The notes under the pieces were generated by a model. That model saw only the letters and a program-made list of their open reading frames with translations, did no database searches and had not been told where the DNA came from. From Nocardioides pocheonensis (GTDB taxonomy: Bacteria > Actinomycetota > Actinomycetes > Propionibacteriales > Nocardioidaceae), in contig NZ_RJSF01000019.1 of the NCBI RefSeq assembly GCF_003725535.1, positions 110,293 through 150,439 of the forward strand: a DNA stretch of 40,147 nt. Reading direction: 5' to 3'. Each line of letters opens with the position of its first letter. Positions within the stretch are counted from its first letter, which is position 1. This document shows positions 12,833 through 38,331 of this stretch, in pieces. The position numbers and the translations under genes are program-made.

Positions 12833-13360
12833 GTGCGCAGAGCGGTCTGTCCGGGTTCCTTCGACCCGGTCACCAACGGCCACATCGACATCGTGTCCCG
12901 CGCCTCGCAGCTCTTCGACGAGGTCGTCGTGGCGATCGGGGTGAACAAGGCCAAGGCGAGTGCCCGGCTGTTCTCTGCCGAGGAGCGCATGGAGATGCTG
13001 GAGAAGGCCTGCGCGGACTTCCCGAACGTCACCGTCGCCGGCTTCGAGGGACTGCTCACCACGTTCTGCGAGCAGAACGACATCCGCGCGATCGTCAAGG
13101 GGCTCCGCGCGGTCAGCGACTTCGACTACGAGCTGCAGATGGCGCAGATGAACTCCTCGCTCGTGGACGTGGAGACCGTGTTCATCCCCACCAGCCCCGA
13201 GTACTCCTTCCTCGCCTCCTCCCTCGTGAAGGAGGTGGCGATGTTCGGCGGCGACGTCTCGGCTCTCGTGCCGCCGTTCGTCCTCGAGCGGCTGCACGCC
13301 CGTCTCGCGGAGAAGCGGGCCGAGTCGGCGGGTGACGCAGAAGAAGGTCCGGGCCGATGA
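12833..13360 (+). CDS. coaD: Phosphopantetheine adenylyltransferase
   Basis: 175 residues. It transfers AMP from ATP to 4'-phosphopantetheine in coenzyme A synthesis. The nucleotidyltransferase TxGH motif is at TNGH (14-17) within CPGSFDPVTNGHIDIV; KGLRAVSDFDYELQMAQMN and the C-terminal SSLVKE (equivalent of the ISSTxVRE motif) are present. The start is GTG at 12833 with CAGGAG upstream. The stop TGA (13358-13360) overlaps the next gene's ATG (13357-13359). The last ~15 residues are a variable Glu/Ala tail. Confidence 0.95.
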   Translation: MRRAVCPGSFDPVTNGHIDIVSRASQLFDEVVVAIGVNKAKASARLFSAEERMEMLEKACADFPNVTVAGFEGLLTTFCEQNDIRAIVKGLRAVSDFDYELQMAQMNSSLVDVETVFIPTSPEYSFLASSLVKEVAMFGGDVSALVPPFVLERLHARLAEKRAESAGDAEEGPGR

Positions 13361-13872
13361 GGGACGACATCGACGCCCGCCTGCGCGACCTCCGCGCCGC
13401 GGTCGAGGACGCCCGCTCGGTCCCGATGTCGGCCTCGGTGATGATCAACCGGTCCGAGTTCCTCGACCTGATCGGCGCGCTCGAGGCCGCGCTCGAGCAC
13501 ACCCTCACCGACGCCACCGAGGTGGTCGGCGGCCGCGAGGCCGTCCTCGCCGAGGCCAGCAGCCAGGCGGAGGAGATCGTCCGTGCCGCCGAGATGGAGC
13601 GCGAGGTCCTCGTCTCCGAGACCGACGTCTTCCGGCTCGCCGAGGCCCGCGCCGCGGAGATCACCGAGACCGCCCAGAAGGCCGCCGAGGAGCTCCAGGC
13701 CGAGACCGAGCAGTACGTCGAGGAGAAGCTGGCCAACTTCGAGCTCACCCTCGAGCGCACGCTCGACCTGGTCCGCCGCGGCCGGGCCCGCCTCTCCGGC
13801 GGTCACTCCCACGCCCTCGGCGACGACAGCGACGTCGACGCCATCCACCTCCCGGATCACCTCGAGCGCTGA
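13357..13872 (+). CDS. SepIVA/DivIVA-like coiled-coil protein
   Basis: 171 residues, with no signal or membrane segment. After a short N-terminal part with ASVMINRSEFLDLIGALEAAL (about 26-46), residues 50-140 are Glu/Ala/Lys-rich and predicted coiled coil, ending in a Gly/His/Asp tail. The motif and position match mycobacterial SepIVA (Rv2927c/MSMEG_2416), a DivIVA-family factor essential for division and located just before DUF177-rnc (from memory). It is shorter than SepIVA, which I recall as about 245 residues. Its ATG overlaps the coaD stop (ATGA). A 32-bp-period array begins inside its stop codon. F0F1 subunit-b-like similarity is a generic coiled-coil effect. Confidence 0.7.
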   Translation: MRDDIDARLRDLRAAVEDARSVPMSASVMINRSEFLDLIGALEAALEHTLTDATEVVGGREAVLAEASSQAEEIVRAAEMEREVLVSETDVFRLAEARAAEITETAQKAAEELQAETEQYVEEKLANFELTLERTLDLVRRGRARLSGGHSHALGDDSDVDAIHLPDHLER

Positions 13873-14109
13873 GCGGGCGCTGCGGCTGGGTTGGAGCGCG
13901 GCGAGCGGGTGCTGCGGCTGGGGCGGAACGCGGCGAGCGGGTGCCGCGGCTGGGGCGGAACGCGGCGAGCGGGTGCCGCAGGTGCGTGCCCGTGCCAGCG
14001 CGAGTGCCCGCTCGGCGTACTCGGAGGCAGCCGGAGTGCCCGCTCGGCGTACTCGGAGGCAGCCGGAGTGCCCGCTCGGTGTACCCGGAGGCTGCCGGAC
14101 TGCCCGCTC
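13871..14109. repeat. Inverted 32-bp-period array A (4 direct + 4 inverted units)
   Basis: GAGCGGG occurs at 13871, 13903, 13935 and 13967, and its complement CCCGCTC at 14007, 14039, 14071 and 14103. Every step is exactly 32 bp. Most of the unit is conserved: the units starting at 14007 and 14039 are identical over 32 bp, and the first left unit matches the reverse complement of the second right unit at about 22 of 32 positions. CTG at unit positions 16-18 is kept in most units. It fills the 315-bp gap between the SepIVA-like gene and yceD together with the yceD promoter. It is neither coding nor CRISPR-like. Confidence 0.9.
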
Positions 14110-14136
14110 GGCGGTCGTTTTGGTCGCGGAGCGGGC
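14102..14136 (+). other. Hairpin formed by the last array unit and an extra core next to the yceD promoter
   Basis: GCCCGCTC (14102-14109) pairs with GAGCGGGC (14129-14136), with a further short helix across a G-G mismatch. The right arm is a ninth core motif in left orientation, inside the spacer of the putative yceD promoter. Confidence 0.5.
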
Positions 14137-18424: not shown

Positions 18425-18491
18425 GAACAGTGTTCGGACAACTCGAACACTGTTCTACTCGAACACTGTTCGTTCGTCAAGAACATTGTTC
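18425..18491. promoter_or_regulatory. Four TetR-type operators between the efflux gene and tetR
   Basis: Four near-identical 11-bp palindromes, GAACA-N-TGTTC: 18425-18435, 18445-18455, 18461-18471 and 18481-18491 (the last reads GAACATTGTTC). Start-to-start spacing is 20, 16 and 20 bp, giving two pairs. Operators 2 and 3 overlap the -10 and spacer of the efflux promoter; operator 4 covers the -35 region of the tetR promoter. The likely ligand is the adjacent TetR protein, giving autoregulation and repression of the pump. Confidence 0.85.
18452..18480 (-). promoter_or_regulatory. Promoter of the MFS efflux gene
   Basis: On the minus strand TTGACG (complement of 18475-18480) and TAGAAC (complement of 18452-18457) are separated by 17 bp. 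Operators 2 and 3 lie in the -10/spacer, so repressor binding would block RNA polymerase. Confidence 0.6.
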
Positions 18492-33190: not shown

Positions 33191-34732
33191 TTGTTCACCA
33201 CGCTTTCCGACCGGCTGTCCGAGACGTTCAAGGCCCTCCGCGGCAAGGGCCGGCTGTCCGAGGCGGACATCGACGCCACCGCGCGCGAGATCCGGCTCGC
33301 CCTGCTCGAGGCCGACGTCGCGCTGCCGGTGGTCAAGGACTTCATCGCGGCGGTCAAGGAGCGCGCCCGGGGCGAGGAGGTCAGCCAGGCGCTGAACCCG
33401 GCCCAGCAGGTCGTGAAGATCGTGAACGAGGAGCTGGTCGGGATCCTGGGCGGGGAGACCCGCCGGCTGACCTTCGCCAAGACCCCGCCGACCGTGATCA
33501 TGCTCGCCGGCCTCCAGGGCTCCGGCAAGACGACCCTCGCGGCCAAGCTCGCGCTGTGGCTCAAGGACCAGGGCAAGAGCCCGCTGCTGGTGGCCGCGGA
33601 CCTGCAGCGCCCGAACGCCGTGAACCAGCTGCAGGTCAACGGTGAGCGCGCCGGCGTGACCGTCTTCGCGCCCCAGCCGGGCAACGGTGTCGGCGACCCG
33701 GTCGCGGTTTCCCGTGAGGGTGTGGCCGAGGCCCGCCGCACGCTGCACGACGTCGTCATCATCGACACCGCGGGCCGCCTGGGCATCGACGAGGAGCTGA
33801 TGCGCCAGGCCGCGGACATCCGCGACGCCGTCACCCCCGACGAGATCCTGTTCGTCGTCGACGCGATGATCGGCCAGGACGCCGTCAACACCGCCCAGGC
33901 GTTCCTCGACGGCGTCGGGTACGACGGCGTCGTGCTCACCAAGCTCGACGGTGATGCGCGCGGCGGTGCGGCGCTCTCGATCGCCAAGATGACCGGCAAG
34001 CCGGTGATGTTCGCGTCCGCCGGCGAGAAGCTCACCGACTTCGACCTGTTCCACCCCGACCGGATGGCCTCGCGCATCCTCGACATGGGTGACCTGCTCA
34101 CGCTGATCGAGCAGGCCGAGAAGACGTTCGACGCCGAGCAGGCGGCCAAGGCGGCCGCGAAGCTCCAGGAGGGGGAGTTCACCCTCGACGACTTCCTCGA
34201 GCAGATGCAGCAGGTCCGCAAGATGGGCTCGCTGACCAAGATGCTCGGGATGCTGCCGGGGATGGGCCAGTTCCGTGACCAGCTGGAGAACTTCGACGAG
34301 CGCGAGATCGACCGGATCCAGGCGATCATCCAGTCGATGACGCCCGCCGAGCGGGCGAACCCGAAGATGATCGACGGCTCCCGCCGCGCGCGGATCGCCA
34401 AGGGTGCGGGTCGGACCGTCGCCGACGTCAACCAGCTGGTCGACCGGTTCTTCGAGGCCCGCAAGATGATGCAGCAGATGGCGCGCGGCGGCATGCCCGG
34501 CCTTCCCGGGTCTCCCGGGATGGGCCTGGGCAAGAAGGCCAAGGGTCGTCAGGCACCGCAGCAGAAGAAGGGCAAGGGTGCTCGGCGCAGCGGCAACCCC
34601 GCCAGGGCGGCGGCCGAGGCGCAGGGCCAGAAGGACGGCGCACCGGCCGGCTCGGCGTTCGGCCTGCCGGCCGACCTGCCCGAGGACTTCGACCCCAGCC
34701 AGCTCCCCGACCTGTCGAAGTACCTCAAGTAG
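33191..34732 (+). CDS. ffh: Signal recognition particle protein Ffh
   Basis: 513 residues. The N domain (1-90) precedes the G domain with GLQGSGKTT (107-115), AADLQRPNAVNQL, IDTAGRLG and TKLDGDARGG. The Met-rich M domain follows (about 295-435: MLGMLPGMGQF, SMTPAERANPKMIDGSRRARIAKGAG), then a ~75-residue Gly/Lys/Ala-rich C-terminal extension. It binds 4.5S RNA and signal sequences; the RNA gene is not in the window. The start is TTG at 33191 with GAGGA upstream; FTTLSDRL is the conserved N-terminus. Array B begins 16 bp after the stop. Confidence 0.96.
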   Translation: MFTTLSDRLSETFKALRGKGRLSEADIDATAREIRLALLEADVALPVVKDFIAAVKERARGEEVSQALNPAQQVVKIVNEELVGILGGETRRLTFAKTPPTVIMLAGLQGSGKTTLAAKLALWLKDQGKSPLLVAADLQRPNAVNQLQVNGERAGVTVFAPQPGNGVGDPVAVSREGVAEARRTLHDVVIIDTAGRLGIDEELMRQAADIRDAVTPDEILFVVDAMIGQDAVNTAQAFLDGVGYDGVVLTKLDGDARGGAALSIAKMTGKPVMFASAGEKLTDFDLFHPDRMASRILDMGDLLTLIEQAEKTFDAEQAAKAAAKLQEGEFTLDDFLEQMQQVRKMGSLTKMLGMLPGMGQFRDQLENFDEREIDRIQAIIQSMTPAERANPKMIDGSRRARIAKGAGRTVADVNQLVDRFFEARKMMQQMARGGMPGLPGSPGMGLGKKAKGRQAPQQKKGKGARRSGNPARAAAEAQGQKDGAPAGSAFGLPADLPEDFDPSQLPDLSKYLK

Positions 34733-34747
34733 ACCCGGGAGGTCGGC

Positions 34748-34973
34748 GAGCGGGCACGAATGCTGCGCGGGAGCGCGGCGAGCGGGCAGGAATGCTGCGC
34801 GTGAGGGCGGCGAGCGGGCAGGAATGCTGCGCGTGAGGGCGGCGAGCGGGCAGGAATGCTGCGCGCTCTCACCGGCTTCGGGTGCGTCCTGAAGTGGGAG
34901 TGCCCGCTCGGGACGTCCGTGGCCAGTGGGAGTGCCCGCTCGGGGTGTCGGTCGGCAGTGGGAGTGCCCGCTC
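34748..34973. repeat. Inverted 32-bp-period array B (4 direct + 3 inverted units)
   Basis: GAGCGGG occurs at 34748, 34780, 34812 and 34844; CCCGCTC at 34903, 34935 and 34967. All steps are exactly 32 bp. The units at 34780 and 34812 are identical over 32 bp. The linkers differ from array A, but the first left units of A and B share both the first 8 and the last 10 bases. Core, period and CTG at unit positions 16-18 are common (one right unit reads CTT). It fills the 257-bp gap between the convergent ffh and ROK genes. Confidence 0.9.
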
Positions 34974-34989
34974 GGCGTACGGGTTTGGC

Positions 34990-36159
34990 TCACTCCTCCA
35001 GGGCGGCCCGGGCGATCGCCATCGCGATCGCACCGGTGATCTCGGCCCGCGCTCCGAGGGCCGCCGACGCGACCCGCACGGCGGCGGCGGTGGCCGGCTG
35101 GGCATAGCGGTCCAGGGAGGCGCGCACACCCTCGACGAGGGGTGCCGCCGAGCCGAGCGGGCCGCCGACCACGACGAGGCTCGGGTTGATGCTGTTGCAC
35201 AGGTCGGCGAGCGCCCGCCCGACCGTCCGGCCGGCATCGCCGAGCACGCGGCGCACACCGGCGTCCCCCTCGGCCTCGAGGGCGAGCACCCGGTCGACCG
35301 TGAGGGTCTCGTCGTACGCCGGCTCGAGCAGCTCGAGCAGCCTCGGCACCGACACCTCGGTCTCGAGGCAGCCGCGGTTGGTGCACCGGCAGACGCGGCC
35401 GTGCTCGAGGATCTGGACGTGGCCGATCTCGCCGGCGATGCCGGTCGCGCCGCGGTAGAGGCGCCCGCCGAGCACCAGGCCCGCGCCGACGCCGCTGGCC
35501 AGCTTGAGGTAGACGAAGTCGCCGACCCCGTGGGCCGCACCGTGGTGCAGCTCGGCGAGCGCGCCGAGGTTCGCGTCGTTGTCGGCTGCCACCGGGATCC
35601 CGAGCCGCTCCTGCAGCTCGTCGGTCGGGACCAGGTCGTGCCAGCCGGGCAGGATCCCGGACCTGATCTGCGCCGACCGCCGGTCGATCGGCGCCGGCAC
35701 GCAGAGCCCGACGCCGCGCAGGTCCGCGACCTCCCGGCCGCTCGCCCGCGCGAGCGAGCGCACCATCCGGGTCGCCCGGTCGAGGGTCGCGGACCCGTGG
35801 TCGTCCACGTCGACGGGCTGGACGTCCTCGGCCAGGACGACGCCGGACCGGTCGGCGACCGCGACCCGGACGTGGTGGTGCCCGATGTCGATGCCGGCCA
35901 CGCCACCGCGGGCGCTCGTGGCCGCCACCAGCAGCGGGGGCCGGCCGCTGCCACCCTTGTGCGGGCGGCCGCGGTCCGTCGTCTCGACCGCGAGCCCGTG
36001 CTCGATCAGGTCCTGCACGAGACTCGACACGGTCGTCCGCGACAGCCCGGTCGACCGGGCGAGATCGGCCCGGCTCTGGGGACCGTCGGTCAGCAGCGCG
36101 CCGAGGACCGCGCGCCGGTTCGCGGCACGCAGCCGCTCGAGCGAGGTGCGGTCCGCCAT
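34990..36159 (-). CDS. ROK family transcriptional regulator
   Basis: 389 residues. The N-terminal winged helix (about 1-75: RANRRAVLGALL, SRADLARSTGLSRTTVSSLVQDLI) is followed by the ROK sugar-kinase-like domain: GIDIGHHHVRVAVAD, DNDANLGAL, and the zinc motif VCRCTNRGCLE (CxCGxxGC with Thr for the Gly). Such proteins (NagC/XylR/Mlc type) repress sugar genes and respond to sugars or sugar phosphates. It is divergent from a secreted GH3 glycosidase, its likely target. The ATG at 36159 follows TACCGT-N6; an upstream in-frame ATG at 36177 abuts GGAGGA without spacing and is less likely. Confidence 0.9.
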   Translation of the reverse strand: MADRTSLERLRAANRRAVLGALLTDGPQSRADLARSTGLSRTTVSSLVQDLIEHGLAVETTDRGRPHKGGSGRPPLLVAATSARGGVAGIDIGHHHVRVAVADRSGVVLAEDVQPVDVDDHGSATLDRATRMVRSLARASGREVADLRGVGLCVPAPIDRRSAQIRSGILPGWHDLVPTDELQERLGIPVAADNDANLGALAELHHGAAHGVGDFVYLKLASGVGAGLVLGGRLYRGATGIAGEIGHVQILEHGRVCRCTNRGCLETEVSVPRLLELLEPAYDETLTVDRVLALEAEGDAGVRRVLGDAGRTVGRALADLCNSINPSLVVVGGPLGSAAPLVEGVRASLDRYAQPATAAAVRVASAALGARAEITGAIAMAIARAALEE

Positions 36160-36165
36160 GTCGGC

Positions 36166-36171
36166 ACGGTA
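36166..36171 (-). promoter_or_regulatory. Leaderless-type -10 box of the ROK gene
   Basis: Minus-strand TACCGT followed by 6 nt and the ATG at 36159. Confidence 0.45.
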
Positions 36172-36225
36172 GGGCATTCCTCCGGAGAACGCACTAATAA
36201 GGCGCGTGCTGGCGATCTTTCCGCA

Positions 36226-36255
36226 TTGACGCTGCCGAATCCCGGTTCCTAGCGT
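36226..36255 (+). promoter_or_regulatory. Promoter of the GH3 glycosidase gene
   Basis: TTGACG (36226-36231) and TAGCGT (36250-36255), spaced by 18 bp. The leader to the ATG at 36319 would be about 57 nt. The AT-rich CACTAATAAGG (about 36192-36202) just upstream is the only such stretch here and a candidate ROK-binding site. Confidence 0.55.
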
Positions 36256-36318
36256 GACCGGCGACACACTCACCTCGGGGACCGGCTCGACCGGACCCGA
36301 TCTCGGGCAGGAGACGCC

Positions 36319-38331
36319 ATGCACCACCATCCCTCACGGACCCGGCGGCGATCCGCCGCGGTCCTCGTCGCCGCAGGTGCCGCGCTGCTGTCGGCGGCGC
36401 TCGTCGCCCCCGCCGGCCACGCGACCCCCGCCGGCGGCTCCGGCGGGCACGAGCACCACGGCCACGCCCTGCCCTACCGCGACGCGACGCTGCCGACCGC
36501 GACCCGCGTCGCCGACCTCCTCGGCCGGATGACGCTCCAGGAGAAGGTCGGCCAGATGACCCAGGCCGAGCGCGGCGACGTCGCGGCCGACCCGTCGCTC
36601 GTGACGACCTGGGGTCTCGGGAGCCTGCTCTCGGGCGGCGGCTCGGTGCCCGACCCGAACACTCCGGCGGCGTGGGCCGACATGGTCGACACCTTCCAGC
36701 GGGCCGCGCTCCAGACCCGCCTCGGCATCCCGATCCTGTACGGCGTGGACTCCGTGCACGGCCACGGCAACCTCCTGAGCGCGACCGTCTTCCCGCACAA
36801 CATCGGCCTCGGTGCCACGCGAGACCCGCGCCTGGTCCGCAAGGTCGGCGCGATCACGGCCGAGGAGACCCGTGCCTCCGGGCCGCAGTGGACCTTCGCC
36901 CCGTGCGTGTGCGTGGCGCGCGACGACCGGTGGGGCCGCACCTACGAGAGCTTCGGCGAGGACCCGAACCTGGTCGAGTCGATGGAGACCATCATCGACG
37001 GGCTCCAGGGCAAGCCCGGCCAGCTGGACCAGTCGCGCCACGTCCTGGCCACCGCGAAGCACTTCGCCGGTGACGGGCTGACGAGCTACGACGCGACCAA
37101 GGCCGGCACCGGCGCCTACCCGATCGACCAGGGCGTCGACCAGGTCGACCGGGCGACCTTCGACCGGCTCGCCCTGGCGCCGTACTGGCCCGCCGTGCAG
37201 CAGCACCACGTCGGCTCCGTGATGCCCTCCTTCTCCAGCGTCGACTGGACCGAGGACGGTCTCGGCAACCCGATCAAGATGCACGCCAACCGGGAGCTGA
37301 TCACCGGAGTCCTCAAGGGCGCGATGGGCTTCGACGGACTGGTGGTGTCGGACTGGCAGGCGATCAGGCAGCTGCCGGGCGACTACCGCACGCAGGTGGC
37401 CACGTCGGTCGACGCGGGCGTGGACCTGTTCATGGAGCCGTACTCCGGCAGCAGCGTCGGAGCACCCGACTTCATCGCCACGCTCGTGGGCCTGGTGCAG
37501 GACCACACCGTGCCGATGAACCGGATCGACGACGCGGTCTCGCGCATCCTGACGGCGAAGTTCGAGCTCGGGCTGTTCGAGCACCCGTTCACCGACCGCA
37601 GCCACCTCGACGACATCGGCAGCCCGGAGCACCGGGCCGTGGCCCGCAGGGCCGTGCAGGAGTCGCAGGTGCTGCTGAAGAACGACAGCGGAACGCTCCC
37701 GCTCGACGCCGACCACCCGGTGTACGTCGCCGGCAGCAACGCCGACAACATCGGCAACCAGGCGGGTGGCTGGACCCTGACGTGGCAGGGCGGCTCGACC
37801 AACGTGATCCCGGGGCAGACGATCCTCGACGGCATCCGCCACGCGGACGCCCAGGTCACCTACAGCGAGGACGCCGGCGCACCCGTGCCGGCCGGGGCCG
37901 ACGGCATCGTCGTGGTCGGCGAGACGCCGTACGCCGAGGGCTTCGGCGACGTCGGCGGTCCGCAGTGGGCCTACGACCCGGGCGACCACGGGGTCCCGCG
38001 GCCGGCGAAGACCATGGAGCTCTCCGACGCCGACAAGGCGGCGGTCGCGAAGGTCTGCGCGGAAGCCGCGAGCTGCACGGTGGTCGTCGTCTCGGGTCGG
38101 CCGGTCGTGATCGACCCGTCGTTGCTCGGACAGATCGACGCCCTGGTCGCAGCCTGGCTGCCCGGCAGCGAGGGCGAGGGCGTCGCGGACGTGGTGTTCG
38201 GCACGGCGGGGTTCACCGGCCGGCTGCCGGTGACCTGGCCGCGGTCGGTGTCGCAGGAGCCGATCAACGTCGGTGATGCCGACTACGACCCGCTGTACCC
38301 GTTCGGGTGGGGGTTGCGGACGGAGGGCTGA
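36319..38331 (+). CDS. Secreted glycoside hydrolase family 3 beta-glucosidase/exo-glucanase
   Basis: 670 residues. A signal peptide (about 1-36) has RTRRR, then AAVLVAAGAALLSAALVAPAGHA. The His-rich segment GGHEHHGHALPYRD follows. The GH3 (beta/alpha)8 domain has GIPILYGVDSVHGH, RWGRTYESFGEDP, AKHFAGDG and the nucleophile Asp345 in GLVVSDWQAI. The second domain has LLKNDSGTLPLD, and Glu540 in GETPYAEGFGD corresponds to the acid/base region of plant ExoI-type enzymes. It probably releases glucose from beta-glucans outside the cell; substrate not certain. GCAGGAG precedes the ATG. Divergent from the ROK regulator. Confidence 0.92.
   Translation: MHHHPSRTRRRSAAVLVAAGAALLSAALVAPAGHATPAGGSGGHEHHGHALPYRDATLPTATRVADLLGRMTLQEKVGQMTQAERGDVAADPSLVTTWGLGSLLSGGGSVPDPNTPAAWADMVDTFQRAALQTRLGIPILYGVDSVHGHGNLLSATVFPHNIGLGATRDPRLVRKVGAITAEETRASGPQWTFAPCVCVARDDRWGRTYESFGEDPNLVESMETIIDGLQGKPGQLDQSRHVLATAKHFAGDGLTSYDATKAGTGAYPIDQGVDQVDRATFDRLALAPYWPAVQQHHVGSVMPSFSSVDWTEDGLGNPIKMHANRELITGVLKGAMGFDGLVVSDWQAIRQLPGDYRTQVATSVDAGVDLFMEPYSGSSVGAPDFIATLVGLVQDHTVPMNRIDDAVSRILTAKFELGLFEHPFTDRSHLDDIGSPEHRAVARRAVQESQVLLKNDSGTLPLDADHPVYVAGSNADNIGNQAGGWTLTWQGGSTNVIPGQTILDGIRHADAQVTYSEDAGAPVPAGADGIVVVGETPYAEGFGDVGGPQWAYDPGDHGVPRPAKTMELSDADKAAVAKVCAEAASCTVVVVSGRPVVIDPSLLGQIDALVAAWLPGSEGEGVADVVFGTAGFTGRLPVTWPRSVSQEPINVGDADYDPLYPFGWGLRTEG

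Follow-up and report, generated by a model that had tools for sequence, protein, structure and literature searches.

Tn7-type ends carry several transposase sites. The arrays described below resemble such ends, and MITEs, in having inward-facing inverted ends composed of several sites and in occurring as short copies without a gene. A second likeness is to the REPIN-RAYT systems, in which short inverted repeats outside genes occur in many copies per genome, each repeat type adjoining the single-copy gene of a distinctive enzyme, and this gene is inherited in place (PMC3116915); the REP unit is characterized as a short palindrome with a GTAG/CGTC-type tag (PMC3733652). On the protein side, the type IV toxin-antitoxin antitoxins AbiEi and Rv2827c are reported to autoregulate through several 23-bp inverted repeats (PMC7319586); known members of the group bind several 23-bp repeats near their own gene. 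The Vsr/DUF559/EDxHD endonucleases, among them Escherichia coli Vsr and the homing endonuclease I-Bth0305I, share the Vsr-type fold, in which acidic and His residues are conserved. Here, we describe a repeat array of Nocardioides pocheonensis (array A) that is, quite probably, a dispersed non-coding inverted-array element, the units of which are predicted DNA sites of a chromosomal protein of the same genome that joins the last two folds (AbiEi-Vsr).

The window (the whole stretch of DNA analyzed, 40,147 nucleotides) carries array A between two co-directional genes on the + strand, one called SepIVA-like in an earlier note on this DNA and without Pfam or NCBIfam matches (13357..13872), the other belonging to the YceD family (PF02620; 14188..14739); gene calls were made with a home-made frame score. 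The left run (13870..13998, + strand) consists of four 32-bp units that start at 13870, 13902, 13934, and 13966 and reads away from the stop codon of the upstream gene. The right run (14002..14113, - strand, limits as in Tandem Repeats Finder) faces it, with CCCGCTCG cores at 14007, 14039, 14071, and 14103. The core positions and the period proposed in the earlier note were reproduced: GAGCGGG is exact at 13871, 13903, 13935, and 13967, CCCGCTC is exact at the four right-hand positions, and Tandem Repeats Finder gives a period of 32 for both halves. The first core does overlap the upstream stop codon (TGA, 13870-13872), as had been claimed, and a recount by hand of left unit 1 against the reverse complement of right unit 2 returned the same 22 of 32 matches. 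The array is genuine, and chance falls far short of explaining it: the window has 11 GAGCGGG-N25-GAGCGGG pairs, and 100 dinucleotide shuffles yielded none. The supposed ninth core at 14129 is part of the flank and not of the array, since GAGCCGGG occupies the aligned place in the array-free spacer of the closest relative.

For comparison we used 24 genomes of the genus, including the window's own genome (G000). The closest relative by YceD identity (G001, 89%; assembly 75% complete) has 76 bp before yceD as against 315 bp in G000, a difference of 239 bp that approximates the length of the array, and the sequence 3' of array A aligns with the G001 spacer in a gapped alignment. The extra spacer, to which no strand is assigned, spans 13873..14111, its right boundary being approximate. 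A 32-step core is absent from the 400 bp before yceD in all 23 other genomes, which speaks against a fixed site such as the nucleoid or segregation site suggested in the earlier note, and these alignments make array A a gain of the G000 lineage. The gene upstream of yceD is the same as in G000 in 14 of the 23 and is coaD in 9; in G007, which is among the 14, the place of array A is taken by an element from another repeat family. No target-site duplication was visible at the single empty site compared, that of the diverged G001.

Array A is one copy of a dispersed family. The pattern CGAGCGGG-N25-GAGCGGG has 19 forward and 26 reverse matches in G000 versus 1 for the reversed pattern, and arrays occur at about 14 places, in 12 of which a run lies just past a stop codon. 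The earlier note had considered that the design might occur only in this strain, and it does not: three cores in exact step were found in 8 of the 24 genus genomes (and in none of 34 sampled genomes of other genera). The core common to the units is CGAGCGGGC, while the remainder varies between species and is alike within one species; positions 1-22 and 29-32 of the unit are better conserved and 23-28 worst, genomes differing among themselves. At 43 loci from four genomes, 149 of 162 same-strand neighbor steps of 12-80 bp are exactly 32 bp, a partly circular figure, the loci having been picked for 32-bp steps. Across 51 loci from eight genomes, 49 of 82 runs start -3 to 34 bp past the stop of a coding-like frame on the same strand (median, 5 bp), an opposite-strand stop adjoins 5 runs, 2 of which are also counted in the 49, and 10 runs were flagged inside a predicted open reading frame. 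Among opposite-strand neighbors no more than 150 bp apart, 24 pairs face inward and 4 outward. Each outer end of an element is thus marked by a core, and the element often occupies the whole stretch between a stop codon and the next gene end. The sense orientation of the runs was at first suspected to be an RNA or termination signal, an idea that was dropped: runs seem to follow a sense rule because an inward-facing element lies between gene ends, and RNA is not required. Since yceD is co-directional, no convergent gene adjoins the right run of array A.

The window contains a second array of this family, overlooked in the earlier note, at about 34736-34975, between ffh (SRP54; 33191..34732, + strand) and a convergent ROK-family gene (34990..36330, - strand). 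Its left run (34736..34865, + strand) has four cores, the first 14 bp past the ffh stop codon, and its right run (34893..34975, - strand) has three, with 15 bp separating the outer core from the end of the ROK gene. By eye, the ffh loci of G006, G012, G014, and G015 (L190, L191, L201, and L194) have other inverted repeats, not arrays, directly past the ffh stop codon. Two further features were seen: a perfect 16-bp tandem repeat of ACTCGAACACTGTTCT (1.9 copies, window positions 18441-18471) adjoins an MFS transporter gene and is possibly a repressor operator, and a longer hairpin-like stretch with similar ends, GATCGCCGAGCGGGCA or like GGCCCGCTCGGCTCC, adjoins some arrays (L061, L064, and L068).

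In G000, the unit of array A also surrounds a gene (C40:880759-881703), which sits between inward-facing runs of it, and in G007, too, a gene of this family is enclosed by facing runs of the same unit. Both products match AbiEi_4/AbiEi_1. The G000 product is an AbiEi-like winged-helix part (the first 200 residues have the AbiEi fold and match AbiEi models) fused to a Vsr-type nuclease domain; the Vsr-type fold with its conserved acidic and His residues is present, and nuclease activity is predicted. The DUF559 model is passed by some family members and not by the G000 array gene. Since the units of array A are those that flank the AbiEi-Vsr gene, the repeats and the protein appear to belong together, as the halves of a system not yet described. 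Eight wider intervals between facing runs were read, of which two hold an AbiEi-Vsr gene, five another gene, and one no clear gene; the remaining intervals can be read as a pair of separate elements, one at each end of a gene. The presence of other genes between facing runs slightly lowers our confidence in the reading favored here.

Members of the family are deposited as "hypothetical protein," "AbiEi family antitoxin domain-containing," or "very-short-patch-repair endonuclease," and a search of the open-licence PMC literature found neither a role in print for AbiEi-Vsr proteins nor a description of AbiEi/DUF559/Vsr genes linked to dispersed repeats. A profile built from nine AbiEi-Vsr proteins found relatives in all 24 genus genomes (21 at E 1e-60); across the Nocardioidaceae, 256 of 341 genomes have matches at that threshold or better. 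The gene stays in place: neighbors are shared by 26 of 26 pairs of at least 70% identity, 30 of 44 at 60 to 70%, 157 of 569 at 50 to 60%, and 81 of 1,270 at 40 to 50%.

Other partners were tried and rejected. The plain DUF559 family (PF04480) is present in 19 of 24 genomes but is untied to the arrays (array-rich G019 has no match), and the narrower profile A1 tracks them better. As for a phage origin, 49 viral contig stretches matched a peptide pattern and none encodes a relative. Other DUF559 genes of the genus (L257, L259, and L273; also L260, L263, and L267) are flanked by other inverted repeats, for example of TGACGTCATACGAG type at 52-63 bp, and are perhaps further repeat-nuclease pairs. 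Clustered 32-bp CCGAGCGGGC pairs are abundant in a distant actinobacterium, Curtobacterium pusillum (L078, L089, L093, L097, and L116); the best relative there is flanked by another unit, and any tie between it and these arrays would be tentative.

Tandem arrays are concentrated beside the gene. At 60 loci of relatives, the 54 kb flanking the gene contains 61 arrays, and the remaining 413 kb of these loci contains 8. An independent sample of 40 loci from other genera gave 38 in 36 kb versus 3 in 274 kb, with a flanking array at 27 of the 40 genes (on both sides in 10), and 20 further loci (6 from the genus and 14 from other genera) gave 23 in 18 kb versus 5 in 140 kb, with a flanking array at 15 of the 20 (on both sides in 7). 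Loci outside the genus were chosen in order of profile rank; rows close to a contig end were skipped, as were a few more. A tandem period of helical class lies beside 27 of 28 close members (genus plus two named relatives), several of which had contributed to the profile. No flanking tandem array accompanies the four weaker genus matches (L299-L302) or many of the distant ones. The 61 flanking periods are 21 (11 arrays), 22 (21), 31 (1), 32 (16), 33 (3), 37 (1), 42 (1), 43 (1), 44 (5), and 66 (1), and those of the eight stray arrays 22 (4), 32, 33, 44, and 66. Whole-turn classes (2, 3, 4, or 6 turns), which make up 29% of the lags scanned, thus hold 60 of the 61 flanking periods (binomial p about 1e-31, ignoring the kinship of loci and with classes named after the data had been seen). 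Unit sequences differ widely between families, so that this is hardly one inherited repeat, and whole-turn periods across such different units argue for a protein on one face of the DNA. Among the readings offered in the earlier note, the helically phased protein-binding array therefore fits best; the phasing recurs across many unit sequences, and the binding itself is what we infer.

The clade to which a protein belongs also predicts the period class of its array. On an IQ-TREE phylogeny of 67 proteins, the two-turn versus three-turn label (50 rows) requires 3 changes, compared with a mean of 16.7 and a least value of 11 in 200 shuffles, close kin being counted more than once. The protein L294 (in-frame stop) sits on a long branch, and dropping its label still leaves 3 changes over 49; the fragment L295 was excluded from the trees. 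A clade of 30 proteins (support 100/99) comprises 21 two-turn and 2 "4-turn" members and 7 without an array; outside it are 27 three-turn members, 2 two-turn (L283 and L363), 1 "4-turn," 2 "6-turn," and 5 without an array.

Genomes with several family members have several units. The two AbiEi-Vsr genes of G000 differ in unit and period, and both units have dispersed copies; the 22-bp unit of the second (C38:35435) has 29 genome hits, 4 of them at the gene (control, 2), and several copies lie in inward groups at a 22-bp step. In G007, four members have four units, and that of L396 has 102 hits (control, 0). The best 100 of these form 37 clusters, including the gene's own; the same-strand step is 31 or 32 in all but one of 37 cases, no pair faces outward, and eight clusters are of the form "++--" and about 110 bp long. 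Dispersed units best resemble the gene-flank units of their own genome in G000, G003, G008, and G019, and not in G009 (8 units); in G017 they fit by eye. The orthologous genes L375 and L386 (89% identity) have, by eye, the same repeat in different unit numbers.

A repeat family that lies beside its own enzyme gene and is dispersed in the same genome is present here, matching RAYT by analogy and with a different enzyme. In contrast to the single palindromic REPs of REPIN-RAYT, the units are helically phased direct repeats in two inward runs, and the enzyme is an AbiEi-Vsr fusion. The RAYT enzyme (Y1_Tnp) was ruled out as partner, Y1/HUH transposases (PF01797) having no match in the 24 genus genomes, with a control search positive in 5 of 14. 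The G000 unit consensus, CGAGCGGGCACTGCTGCTGCG.., is non-palindromic by eye. With the enzyme absent and the units non-palindromic, the system would work like REPIN-RAYT without being a member of it. It also differs from the AbiEi antitoxins, in the additional C-terminal Vsr-type nuclease domain and in the genome-wide dispersal of unit copies, and from the Vsr/DUF559/EDxHD endonucleases, in a gene that lies outside an intron and is tied to repeat arrays.

These observations suggest how the two halves might act together. The AbiEi-type winged-helix part would bind one site of roughly 22-26 bp per unit, and whole-turn spacing would place neighboring molecules on one face of the DNA, where they could bind cooperatively. 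An inward pair of runs would bring two protein stacks, and with them the Vsr-type nuclease domains, together. More speculatively, the nuclease, acting on its arrays, might make new copies of the element, by a REPIN-RAYT-like logic with an unrelated enzyme. Equally conjectural is the last step, in which insertions would persist mainly past stop codons because they do least harm there, and perhaps also serve as terminators.

Immobile sites would be an unlikely alternative, although it survives better than the others: an AbiEi-type repressor would regulate its own gene through the arrays beside it, and the dispersed arrays would be its regulon or titration sites. The autoregulation of AbiEi and Rv2827c through several inverted repeats is a precedent (PMC7319586), and arrays do occur upstream of the AbiEi-Vsr gene start; however, they are also found downstream of the gene, the dispersed ones are mostly past stop codons and not in promoters, and, of the 24 genomes compared, G000 alone has array A. 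There is a smaller chance that the arrays are host elements of gene ends, either bidirectional terminators or supercoil-relief sites, which expanded near the AbiEi-Vsr gene by chance. Their position past stop codons and between convergent genes would suit this, as would the near-perfect inverted repeats of the G007 elements (by eye), the better-than-shuffled folding of array A, and the TTTT at 14118-14121, 3' of it. That TTTT, however, is also present in the array-free relative, and this reading does not explain why the arrays go with one protein family, why their periods are helical, or why the protein clade predicts the period. The arrays may nevertheless have a terminator side effect.

A slimmer prospect still is a transposon with an unrecognized transposase, for which the AbiEi-Vsr gene would be one of several passengers between inverted arrays. 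The architecture occurs both with and without an internal gene, and genes other than AbiEi-Vsr fill five of the eight intervals read, but it is the AbiEi-Vsr family that lies between such arrays in dozens of loci, its clades predict the period, and the neighbors of close homologues are conserved. The RNA rod of short helices raised in the earlier note, which would lie in a 3' untranslated region, is rejected as very improbable: the folding of array A (z -7.45) supports it weakly at most, but the halves are not locus-specifically complementary outside the core (in G000, mean 0.41 within six loci versus 0.42 between loci; sd, 0.08), the window has no Rfam match at gathering score, and the periods follow the helical turns of DNA.

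We thus favor dispersed arrays that are predicted sites of the AbiEi-Vsr protein. A broader and distinctly more tentative proposal, which we hold at somewhat less than even confidence, is that the AbiEi-Vsr proteins of Actinobacteria and their phased arrays may constitute a new class of dispersed-repeat system, with two- and three-turn sites, inward pairing, nuclease-driven copying past stop codons, one protein per repeat dialect, and several dialects per genome. Each AbiEi-Vsr protein gains a predicted DNA target and a testable job, and the natural two-turn and three-turn arrays beside sister proteins are a ready-made test of a protein that measures helix spacing. The maintenance and spread of short repeats in compact bacterial genomes are now debated in terms of REPIN-RAYT; if true, the proposal would add a second solution, one that relies on an unrelated enzyme.
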